Assembly (NCBI GenBank): GCA_012838125.1
Contig: DUPW01000132.1
Coordinates: 1-60,537, forward strand
From: Papillibacter sp.
GTDB taxonomy: Bacteria > Bacillota > Clostridia > Oscillospirales > Oscillospiraceae
Direction: 5' to 3'
Length of the DNA: 60,537 nucleotides
Part shown: piece after piece, positions 27,585 to 51,417 of the stretch
Layout: each line of letters starts with the position of its first letter
Position numbering within the stretch: the stretch's first letter is position 1
The notes under the pieces: model-generated
Seen by the model: the letters and a program-made list of their open reading frames with translations, nothing else
The model's database searches: none
Told to the model about the DNA's origin: nothing
Position numbers and translations under genes: made by a program

Positions 27585-28421
27585 CTATTTCTCGTTCCTG
27601 CGCTTGACAATGAACTTGTTCGTTCTGTTCTTCGTCTTGCGCGTCTTGTATCCGAGGGCCGGCTTGCCCCACGGTGTCATCGGGCTGGGACGGCCAATCG
27701 GGCTTCTGCCTTCACCGCCGCCGTGCGGGTGGTCAACCGGGTTCATAACCGAACCGCGGACCGTCGGGCGGATACCCATGTGGCGTCTGCGGCCGGCCTT
27801 ACCGATGCTGACGTTGGCGTGGTCCGCGTTGCCCACCTGACCGATGGAGGCCATGCAGTTGATGCGGACGTAGCGGTACTCGCCCGAGGGGAGGCGAATC
27901 TGCGCGAGACTGCCTTCCTTCGCCATAAGCTGCGCCGCCGTGCCGGCGGAGCGGACGAGCTGGCCGCCCTTGCCGGGGTTGAGCTCGATGTTGTGGATAA
28001 AGGTACCCACGGGGATGGCGGAAATGGGAAGGGCGTTGCCGGGCTTGATGTCCGCCTTTTCGGAGGAGATTACTGTATCTCCCGCCGCAAGGCCAACAGG
28101 TGCGAGGATGTAGCGGCGTTCGCCGTCTTCGTATTCAATCAGCGCGATGTGTGCGGAGCGGTTCGGATCGTACTCAAGGCGCAGAACCGTGCCGGGTACG
28201 TCTACCTTGTTGCGCTTAAAGTCGATGATGCGATACTTTCTGCGGTTACCGCCGCCTCTGTGGCGGACGGTGATGCGACCGTAGTTGTTGCGGCCGGAGT
28301 GCTTCTTCAGCACTTCAACGAGCTTGCGCTCCGGCTTTGCCTTCTTATCAATACCGTCGAAACCGGATACGGTCATGTGCCTTCTCGACGGAGTGGTGGG
28401 CTTATAAGCTCTAATAGACAT
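27585..28421 (-). CDS. rplB: 50S ribosomal protein L2
   Basis: [21 protein letters not shown]...[22 protein letters not shown]...[18 protein letters not shown]. Confidence 0.98.
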
Positions 28422-30499: not shown

Positions 30500-30884
30500 G
30501 TTTTTTCCTCCTGTTTGTACGTTTTGGCGCCGCAGCCCGATATAGCCGCGGCAGGCCCGGCTTCGGCATTTCGCCCAAACCGAACCTCATTTCAGAACGC
30601 CCGCCGTACGGAGAGAAAATTCTGTACACTTAACCGTGCGTATCATTCCGATGCGTAAATCAAACCGGCTTGTACTTCGGCCGGTTTGCTTCACATCAGG
30701 CGATATACGCCAAACAGCACTTTCTCAGCCGCCCGATTGTGTACCGCGCAGCCCAGGGTCTCCCCCCGGCACGCGATACCGGATATACTCCTCGGAAGTG
30801 ACCAGGTTGGCAAAAACCTGCAATCTCCCGAATCATCGCATTTTGCGCCCATGTCTGAGAATTCTCACCACAAGGCGCTTTAAC

Positions 30885-41237: not shown

Positions 41238-41311
41238 GCGCCCGTAGCTCAGTTGGATAGAGCGTCAGACTCCGACTCTGAAGGCCGCTGGTTCGACTCC
41301 AGTCGGGCGTA
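41238..41311 (+). tRNA. tRNA-Arg (anticodon CCG), CCA not encoded
   Basis: Cloverleaf by hand: GCGCCCG/CGGGCGT acceptor, GCTC/GAGC D-stem, TCAGA-CTCCGAC-TCTGA anticodon arm, GCTGG-TTCGACT-CCAGT T-arm. Confidence 0.93.
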
Positions 41312-41317
41312 CTATAT

Positions 41318-48523: not shown

Positions 48524-50155
48524 TCAATCTCTAATTCTGAGAAGATTCGCCAGCCGCTCGCCTTTCGGCAGGAGTCTCATGTCGCTGCGGGTTATGGTTC
48601 TTGTGATGATAATCAGAACGCCGTAGACGATGACGGCAACGCCTATGGCCAAAAAGAGGCACACCGTCATTGCCATTCTTCCCTGACCGAGGGCATCGTA
48701 TAAGAGCCTTTCAATGAGGCCGTAAACAGCCCACGCCGCAACGCCCATTACGGCGGTGCAGAGGGCGGGTCTTAAAAAGGCGGACAGGAGCTTCGGCCGG
48801 TCTTTCACCTTCACAAGCAGGAAAATCATATTAAGAGCCGTGATGACAAAGTAGCAGATTAAGGTGCCGAAGGGGGCTGCTTTAATGTTGATAGCGGGAT
48901 TGCCCACAAGGTACCAGTCCAAAAGAATCTGCAAAATACCGCCGACGAGGAAGGAGATGACGGGAATTTTTTCATGGCCGTTGGCCTGCAGGAGTGCTGT
49001 CGTAATCAGCTGCATGCAGACAAAGTAAGAGGCCACGCCGAAAACACGCAGCAGCGTGGGGCCAACGGGGTTGCTCCCCCAGTAGAGCACGTTGAAAATC
49101 GGGTAGGCGAGAACAGACAGGCCCACCGCCGCAGGCATGGCGATGAGATTGGTGATTTTCACGGAGGACTGCATAATATTCTGCGCCTCCCTAATGCGCC
49201 GCGCCGCAAGGGCCCCCGCCAGCGCCGGAATGATGCTGACGGACACCGGCGTGATGAGGGACGAGGGCAGAACAAGGAGCGTCAGCCCCTTGGAATACAC
49301 GCCGTAGAGGGCGACGGCCTCGGTTTCCACCAGTCCCGCCCCCGTCTGGAGGCGGCTCAACACAAAGCGCGTGTCGATAATCGTCATGATGTTCATAAAG
49401 GACGCGCCGAGGGTAATGGGGATACTCACCCGGAAGATGTTGTACAAAATCCGGCGGCGGCTGTAGGCGTCCGCCCCTTCGCTTTCGGCGATGCGGTAGG
49501 GATAGAGCCGCCTATCCATGCGGCGCTTGAGAAACACCATGGCGGGGACGGCAAGGGCAAGGCCCACCGAGACGCCGGAGATGGCCCCCGCCGCCGTTTC
49601 GGCGGAGGTGGCCCCCTGCTGAAGCAGATACCACGCCACGCCCAGGCCGATGATGAGCTTGCTCGTCACCTCCATAAGCTGCTTTGTGGCGGTGGGAATC
49701 ATGTTCTGGTGCCCCTGGCTGTACCCTTCAAAGACGGAGACGATACACACGAAGAAAATCGCCGGGGAGAGAACACGCAGTCCCCCCGCCGCCTGCGGGT
49801 TGCTCATAAACCGGGCAATCTGCTCGGAGAAGAGAAACATCATCCCCGAGAAAAACAGGCCCACGGCGGCAAAGGCCGGCAGGGCCACGGAAAAATACCG
49901 CCGAACGAGCCCGGGCCTTCCCGTGGCGGACGCGGCAGATATCTGGCGGGAGAGGGCAACAGGGATTCCGGCGGTGGAGATAGTCAGGAGGAGGGTGTAA
50001 ACGAGATACGTCACCTGAAAATGGCCTGAGCCCTCATCACCGATGAGGTTAAAAAGAGGGATTTTAAAAATTGCGCTGATGACTTTAGCCAGCACGGCTG
50101 TCGCGGCGAGTATCGCCGCACTGCGCATGTATGTTTGCTTGCTCGAGTGTTCCAA
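48524..50155 (-). CDS. spoVB: Polysaccharide biosynthesis / stage V sporulation protein B-type flippase (TTG start proposed)
   Basis: YMRSAAILAATAVLAKVISAIFKIPLFNLIGDEGSGHFQVTYLVYTLLLTISTAGIPVALSRQIS; RBS aaggaagg upstream of TTG. Confidence 0.85.
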   Translation of the reverse strand: MEHSSKQTYMRSAAILAATAVLAKVISAIFKIPLFNLIGDEGSGHFQVTYLVYTLLLTISTAGIPVALSRQISAASATGRPGLVRRYFSVALPAFAAVGLFFSGMMFLFSEQIARFMSNPQAAGGLRVLSPAIFFVCIVSVFEGYSQGHQNMIPTATKQLMEVTSKLIIGLGVAWYLLQQGATSAETAAGAISGVSVGLALAVPAMVFLKRRMDRRLYPYRIAESEGADAYSRRRILYNIFRVSIPITLGASFMNIMTIIDTRFVLSRLQTGAGLVETEAVALYGVYSKGLTLLVLPSSLITPVSVSIIPALAGALAARRIREAQNIMQSSVKITNLIAMPAAVGLSVLAYPIFNVLYWGSNPVGPTLLRVFGVASYFVCMQLITTALLQANGHEKIPVISFLVGGILQILLDWYLVGNPAINIKAAPFGTLICYFVITALNMIFLLVKVKDRPKLLSAFLRPALCTAVMGVAAWAVYGLIERLLYDALGQGRMAMTVCLFLAIGVAVIVYGVLIIITRTITRSDMRLLPKGERLANLLRIRD

Positions 50156-50418
50156 AATACAATCCTTCCTTTGCCGCCTGATAGCCCGAAAGGGCAACTG
50201 CCGCGTCAAAATAACTATATTCACGCGGCGACGTTTTAACACCGGGCGGTCTCATTTTACACGAAGCGAAGCCCGCGAATGAATACGCGTAATAATAGTG
50301 TTGACATAATAGGGTGTGGAAAAACCTGTGGATAATGTGCAAAACCTTGATATATCAACGAAAATTTCCCGCGGGAAATGTTTTCAACGCCCTTATGGAT
50401 TATTCACGCGATTGAATA

Positions 50419-51417
50419 CTATAGGCCCATCTCCTGCCGGCGGATGCGGATATCACGCCCGGCAAAGGTGAGCACGATAAATTCTCCCAGCAGGCGGGAG
50501 ACGATTGGCGCGCTGTAGCGATGCTGCAGCTCCTCCTTCGAGAAGTTCGTGCTGATAATTGTCTTCTTCCCCGTAATCAGCCGCGTGTTGATGATTTCGT
50601 ACAGGGCGCTGATGGTAAAGGCTGTGGTCATCTCCGTACCCAAATCGTCGATGATGAGCAGGTCGCAGTTTAAGACCCGCCGGACGTGGGCGCGGGTGGC
50701 GTCCGGGTCGTCGGTTTTCTGGAATTTATCTGCCTCGAAGGCGGCGAAAACGGCCCCCGCCGTCTCGTACACCACGGAATGACCCTGCTTTGCCACATCC
50801 CGGGCGATGCAGGCCGAGAGAAACGTTTTGCCCACGCCGGTGGGCCCGATAAACAGAAGACTCTCCGTCATTTCGGAAAAACGCTTCGCGTAGGCTGTGC
50901 AGGTTTCGTAGACGTTCCGCATAATCTGGCGGGGAGATGTCCCGCCGGAGGCGGGGGTGTCGTCGTACCAGCTTAAGTTAAAGGTGTCAAAGCTCTCGTT
51001 CCCCAGCTTAAAGAGACTGCTTAAGGCCGCGTTTTGTTCCTCGGTGTAAAGCTCCATGAGACACCGGCAGGGCGAAGTGCCCGCATAACCGCTGTCGCGG
51101 CAGTCCTCACAGTAGTAGTCCCGATCGGTGTAATCCCGGGGAAATCCCGCCTTTTCAAGATACTGCCCACGCCGCTCCTGCAGGGCAAGGCTTTTTGCGC
51201 CGATTTGCTCCACCGCCGCCACAGGGTCCTCCCCCTTTTGCAGAGAGACGTTGACGGCTTCCATGACGAGGGCGCGAAGGGTGCGGTCTATGTCCTCCGC
51301 TTCGGGCACGGCGGCGTACACCGCCTTCAGGCGCGCCTCCCGCTCTGCGGCAAATGCGCGGACCCGCTCCTCATGGCGCCGGCGGGCGGCGTGAAGGATT
51401 TTGCTGTCAAGCGCCAC
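50419..51417 (-). CDS. dnaI: DnaC/DnaI-type ATP-binding helicase loader
   Basis: LLFIGPTGVGKTFLSACIARDVAKQGHSVVYETA; LLIIDDLGTEMTTAFT; paired with DnaD-type gene. Confidence 0.88.
   Translation of the reverse strand: MALDSKILHAARRRHEERVRAFAAEREARLKAVYAAVPEAEDIDRTLRALVMEAVNVSLQKGEDPVAAVEQIGAKSLALQERRGQYLEKAGFPRDYTDRDYYCEDCRDSGYAGTSPCRCLMELYTEEQNAALSSLFKLGNESFDTFNLSWYDDTPASGGTSPRQIMRNVYETCTAYAKRFSEMTESLLFIGPTGVGKTFLSACIARDVAKQGHSVVYETAGAVFAAFEADKFQKTDDPDATRAHVRRVLNCDLLIIDDLGTEMTTAFTISALYEIINTRLITGKKTIISTNFSKEELQHRYSAPIVSRLLGEFIVLTFAGRDIRIRRQEMGL

Follow-up and report, generated by a model that had tools for sequence, protein, structure and literature searches.

The intergenic region between a dnaI-like helicase loader gene and a spoVB-like flippase gene of Papillibacter sp. 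carries three tandem DnaA boxes followed by a second conserved motif, TTATGTNAAC. The region lies in the window, the whole stretch of 60,537 nucleotides of contig DUPW01000132.1 that was analysed. On sequence grounds, and with a probability that we place near 0.55, it represents a conserved, apparently single-copy and origin-proximal putative DnaA-binding locus of the Oscillospirales that limits re-initiation, in the manner of datA or of the DnaA-box clusters (DBCs) of Bacillus subtilis, and is neither an origin nor a dedicated promoter. It is probably a conserved control site for the timing of chromosome copying. Non-oriC DnaA-box clusters are already known and the part that appears new is an order-wide grammar with a near-invariant second motif. 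No description of the element or the motif was found in the open-licence literature.

The minus-strand core reads GGTTTTGCACA TTATCCACA GG TTTTTCCACA CCCTA TTATGTCAAC (Table 1). The three boxes run head-to-tail in one direction with starts 9 and 12 bp apart, and box 1 abuts box 2. The composite grammar is of tandem DnaA boxes, then 3-5 nucleotides, then TTATGTNAAC. Five motifs listed for this gap in the first-pass annotation (TGTGGAAAA, TGTGGATAA, TTATTCACG, TTGATATATCAA and ATTTCCCGCGGGAAAT) are all present where it placed them. The start of the spoVB-like gene was positioned by eye from the ribosome-binding site and from congeners.

Table 1. Features in and around the dnaI-spoVB intergenic region (positions in the window)
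Feature	Position	Strand	Basis
Whole conserved element, dnaI-proximal part of the dnaI-spoVB intergenic region	50297..50418	-	Alignment to G003 and G004
DnaA box 1, TTTTGCACA (plus-strand letters TGTGCAAAA)	50336..50344	-	Sequence; overlooked in the first-pass annotation
DnaA box 2, TTATCCACA, the consensus (plus-strand letters TGTGGATAA)	50327..50335	-	Sequence
DnaA box 3, TTTTCCACA (plus-strand letters TGTGGAAAA)	50315..50323	-	Sequence
TTATGTCAAC tail, putative accessory-protein site	50300..50309	-	Conservation in six genomes; overlooked in the first-pass annotation
Palindrome ATTTCCCGCGGGAAAT (ATTTCC-N4-GGAAAT), genus-level part of the element	50364..50379	.	Conservation in congeners
Palindrome TTGATATATCAA, probably chance	50347..50358	.	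Unconserved in six-genome alignment
Box-like motif TTATTCACG	50400..50408	+	Unconserved as a box in six-genome alignment
Putative -10 (TAAAAT) of a spoVB promoter, about 41 bp past the tail	50254..50259	-	GTGTAAAATGAG recurs in congeners; promoter activity inferred
dnaI-like helicase loader gene	50419..51417	-	NCBIfam PRK06835 above cut-off; primosomal protein DnaI PRK08939 below cut-off
spoVB-like flippase gene, probable TTG start	48524..50155	-	TIGR02900 spore_V_B, E 5e-54, below cut-off

The sole other exact TTATCCACA in the window, at 27992-28000 (minus strand), is isolated and outside any cluster. The contig carrying dnaA (G000:C18:1-36822) makes up 1.8% of the genome length and has 12 of its 40 exact TTATCCACA, mostly within genes and ten of them on the strand opposite dnaA; consensus boxes are strongly enriched round oriC. 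A second triple array occurs in the same genome at G000:C59:14867-14896, in a gap adjoining a mutY-looking gene. It reads TTATGCACA-TTATCCACA-GG-TTTATCCACA and is without the TTATGTNAAC tail. The window also contains an S10-Clostridia ribosomal leader (Rfam RF03136) at 30764-30844 on the minus strand, and a tRNA-Arg(ccg) gene at 41238-41312.

Five congeners were found, with DnaI sequences 52-82% identical to that of the window, and their dnaI-spoVB gaps were compared. The boxes, their spacing and TTATGTCAAC are held at the same place in all five, so the poor conservation in close relatives that the first-pass annotation named as a potential objection was not observed. Two boxes of G003 deviate from the strict consensus, box 1 is TTTT[GA]CACA across the congeners and TTATGTCAAC is invariant in the six-genome alignment of the genus. 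Alignment of the element to G003 and G004 gives 75% over 124-126 columns (approximately 121 bp) with scores of 82 and 90, where shuffled sequences reach 28 at most. The comparison was controlled by aligning seven intergenic regions of the colinear block, this one included, to these two genomes. The other six score 41 or less, and the SpoVB/DnaI gap is the only one of the seven still alignable at 52-57% protein identity. In G003 we also note a stretch (C1:430000-436000) of 29% G+C, compared with approximately 52% for the rest of the genome, which is likely a foreign island.

The two palindromes reported in the first-pass annotation both exist but differ in conservation. ATTTCC-N4-GGAAAT, the form of ATTTCCCGCGGGAAAT, is found at this place in five of the six genomes and elsewhere in them just once, in G004, making it part of the element in this genus, whereas TTGATATATCAA is not kept. 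The motif TTATTCACG, described there as DnaA-box-like, is present and yet is not retained as a box in the six-genome alignment. The Noc-binding site (NBS) is ATTTCCCGGGAAAT and occurs in many copies. The conserved palindrome was considered as a Noc site and rejected, its centre being of 4 rather than 2 nucleotides and its occurrence essentially single copy per genome; ATTTCCCGGGAAAT is absent from both the window and C18.

Is the element confined to this genus? In other genera of the family it is retained at several loci at which dnaI and spoVB still appear to be neighbours. A sequence-only profile, built from 11 loci of this kind and including the tail, matches 264 of 295 genomes of Oscillospirales at E <= 0.01. 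Many of these matches are arrays without the tail. The best matches carry it, and many of those lie beside other genes, namely trmE, a gyrB-type topoisomerase gene, a parB-like gene, ksgA or a two-component system (names read by eye, except the gyrB type). Searching the whole class at E <= 1e-7 gave matches in 12 of 391 genomes, seven of them outside Oscillospirales.

A scan of named genomes with the pattern CCACANNGTTNTNCACAN{3,5}TTATGTNAAC, which again includes the tail, placed the composite at 119 or more sites. The matches listed come mostly from genomes titled Oscillospiraceae, Oscillibacter, Intestinimonas, Pseudoflavonifractor, Dysosmobacter, Lawsonibacter or Papillibacter, with some titled only Clostridia or Clostridiales. 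Among the 119 listed, approximately 40 adjoin the gyrB-type gene (one cluster of sense frames together with one read as antisense frames of the same gene), 17 or so dnaI and/or spoVB, some 12 trmE and five two-component or ABC genes, with many single neighbours besides. The element points away from gyrB and towards spoVB or trmE. That the same composite stands beside different genes in many genera speaks for a role that belongs to the chromosome and not to any single gene. The connection with helicase-loading genes drawn in the first-pass annotation is not general. A DnaA-box cluster outside oriC, as suggested there, finds support in the array, in its selective conservation and in the way it recurs across the order. 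Inverted repeats with arms of at least 6 occur upstream of the array in 25 of 118 listed elements, compared with about 6 in shuffles, and share no common sequence among those 118.

The tail of the 119 listed matches is TTATGTCAAC in 64, TTATGTAAAC in 42 and TTATGTTAAC in 12, although its presence there is partly selected because it sat in both the search model and the pattern. Two observations are independent of that selection. The odds of a fixed 9-base match 3-5 nucleotides from any one array are about 1e-5. Inverted copies (GTTNACATAA with one mismatch at most), which were part of no search query, are seen in 35 of the 119 listed elements compared with about 2 in shuffles; they lie 25-35 bp downstream, nearly all at 25-28 or 34-35 bp. 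The tail may be optional since many genomes of the order have arrays that lack it. Outside the order, at G523:C17:3501-3572, there is an array with TTATGTAAAC approximately 17 nucleotides from the last box, and the composite may be older than Oscillospirales. We considered whether TTATGTCAAC might be a -35 hexamer (TTGACA on the other strand) and rejected this, as by eye there is no -10 at 16-18 bp and that stretch is occupied by the boxes.

The array plus tail is present once per genome in G000, G004, G037, G079, G365, G366 and G367; the remaining matches to the short pattern, in those and other genomes, proved on reading to be without an array. In closed genomes the element lies 104 kb from dnaA in a chromosome of 2.19 Mb (G003), 118 kb in 3.56 Mb (AP018533.1) and 358 kb in 3.23 Mb (AP025582.1), at 3-11% of the chromosome from dnaA in these three genomes. 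Where element and dnaA share a contig the distances are 120 kb (G004) and 36 kb (Papillibacter, G037). This suggests selection for an origin-proximal place, in a sample of five genomes of which two were picked for sharing a contig with dnaA.

Alternative explanations have to be weighed. Isolated boxes are weak evidence, since exact TTATNCACA occurs twice in the window (mean 0.68 in shuffles) and, by pattern search, 70 times in the 2.0-Mb genome, compared with 26 for the reversed pattern. Such abundance is what a chance cluster of box-like words would draw on. However, TTWTNCACA has six matches in the window, three of which form the array within 30 bp and in the same direction, and neither triples nor pairs of these boxes arose in 200 first-order Markov simulations of the window. 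A similar density at random intergenic sites, a further objection raised beforehand, did not appear. With the array missing from the simulations, selectively conserved and recurrent over the order, chance is a highly improbable explanation. An auxiliary or second replication origin, proposed in the first-pass annotation, has in its favour that the boxes adjoin helicase-loading genes, and we regard it as equally improbable. The dnaA gene is on a different contig from the element, C18, where the dnaA-dnaN gap (C18:4684-4929) contains DnaA boxes then GTACTACTGCTACTATTACTA, read by eye as a DnaA-trio; the gap is alike in five congeners. The site in the window is not oriC because a standard oriC with its DnaA-trio lies between dnaA and dnaN, on that other contig, and by eye no trio follows the last box of the element. 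Sampled along the closed genome of congener G003, GC skew switches sign at dnaA and again near 1.2 Mb. Near the origin, cumulative skew is lowest 16 kb into the contig, on which dnaA is at base 22; there is no turn at the element, 104 kb from dnaA.

The main rival is DnaA-responsive control of transcription of the adjacent gene, spoVB here and trmE or the gyrB-type gene elsewhere, coupling that gene to replication status. The array is roughly 60-90 bp upstream of the putative spoVB -10, and the DnaA of B. subtilis is a regulator of sda and an apparent repressor of trmE-noc, among others (PMC4447404), with trmE a recurrent neighbour of the element. Against this, the neighbours and the direction towards them differ between genera, which disfavours promoter control as the conserved role, and in this genus the conserved block is on the dnaI side of the gap. 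We consider this explanation possible but somewhat doubtful. The earlier suggestion of a promoter for spoVB-mazG-hup is not favoured as the conserved function, given that the composite adjoins unrelated genes in other genera, though local promoter effects are possible. A regulator specific to dnaI or spoVB was rejected for the same role because other genes adjoin the element elsewhere. Alternatively, the site might belong chiefly to a different protein of replication or segregation, such as XerD or a nucleoid protein bound to TTATGTNAAC, and DnaA would then be a secondary partner. The motif is identical to the XerD arm in some dif sites from the literature (PMC2731167), it is conserved as well as the boxes and an inverted second copy is frequent. 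However, a XerCD/dif site is not supported because just the XerD-like half is present and the two copies are wrongly oriented and too widely spaced for dif. A dif-like pattern with this arm, allowing up to 3 mismatches, is absent from 13 genomes and no convincing dif was seen in 220 kb round the G003 terminus. A different principal factor is unlikely, and XerD is at most a lead.

Judged by its sequence the element is a non-oriC DnaA-box cluster, with several boxes close together, outside oriC and intergenic. We infer that titration or datA-like control is the best fit among the readings of the array. In B. subtilis, deletion of six DnaA-box clusters advances initiation (PMC5295017, PMC13220808). 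Those clusters are likewise intergenic and outside oriC, several are oriC-proximal and one is upstream of trmE, a recurrent site of the element here (PMC4447404). The differences are that B. subtilis has six clusters whereas here there is a fixed three-box grammar with TTATGTNAAC, apparently one copy per genome, and that no such tail is described for the B. subtilis clusters in the open-licence literature examined. A limit on titration is that the three boxes are fewer than the 4-11 sites of strong B. subtilis clusters (PMC4447404).

In E. coli datA the essential boxes all face one direction and act with IHF near oriC, datA being within approximately 10% of the chromosome from it (PMC5742627). 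Unidirectional boxes and an accessory site, putative here, are shared, but datA is larger and its IHF site is between boxes, whilst the extra motif here is at the array end. The boxes here are 0 and 3 bp apart, leaving no room for an IHF site between them, and IHF is absent from B. subtilis (PMC13220808). The element is not datA in the strict sense but may work like it. It resembles E. coli DARS1 and DARS2 in having a core of three DnaA boxes and a flanking regulatory part. DARS has box I facing the opposite way to II and III (PMC5742627) whereas all three boxes here have the same direction, and on account of this orientation the element is not a DARS. Tandem DnaA boxes are also a feature of bacterial oriC with a basal unwinding system, from which the element differs in that no DnaA-trio is seen after the last box and the oriC of this genome is elsewhere.

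How might such a locus limit re-initiation? Several DnaA molecules would assemble head to tail on the three-box array, by analogy with datA in the ATP form, and an accessory protein on TTATGTNAAC would assist the assembly. Separated from oriC by a few per cent of the chromosome, the locus would double soon after initiation, and the duplicated locus would draw off or inactivate DnaA, lowering the chance of a further initiation. More tentatively, the element could be a DnaA-control locus common to the whole lineage of Oscillospirales, present in single copy and served by a dedicated accessory protein that recognises TTATGTNAAC. It would be a Gram-positive functional counterpart of datA-IHF whose gene neighbourhood has changed while its place near oriC has not. 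This is a possibility that we hold with less confidence than the general assignment.

To our knowledge, little has been learnt about the way gut Clostridia restrict initiation to once per cycle. B. subtilis is without datA, DARS, Hda and SeqA, and is not known to possess regulators of the DnaA ATP/ADP balance (PMC13220808). Because the element is short, well defined and found across the order, and has a second invariant motif, it provides a direct handle on DnaA binding and on the putative partner at TTATGTNAAC. The site could be deleted in a cultured genus, for example Oscillibacter or Pseudoflavonifractor, and the element is a marker with which to compare initiation control across Firmicutes. 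If the accessory protein is XerD, initiation control would be linked to the machinery of chromosome resolution.
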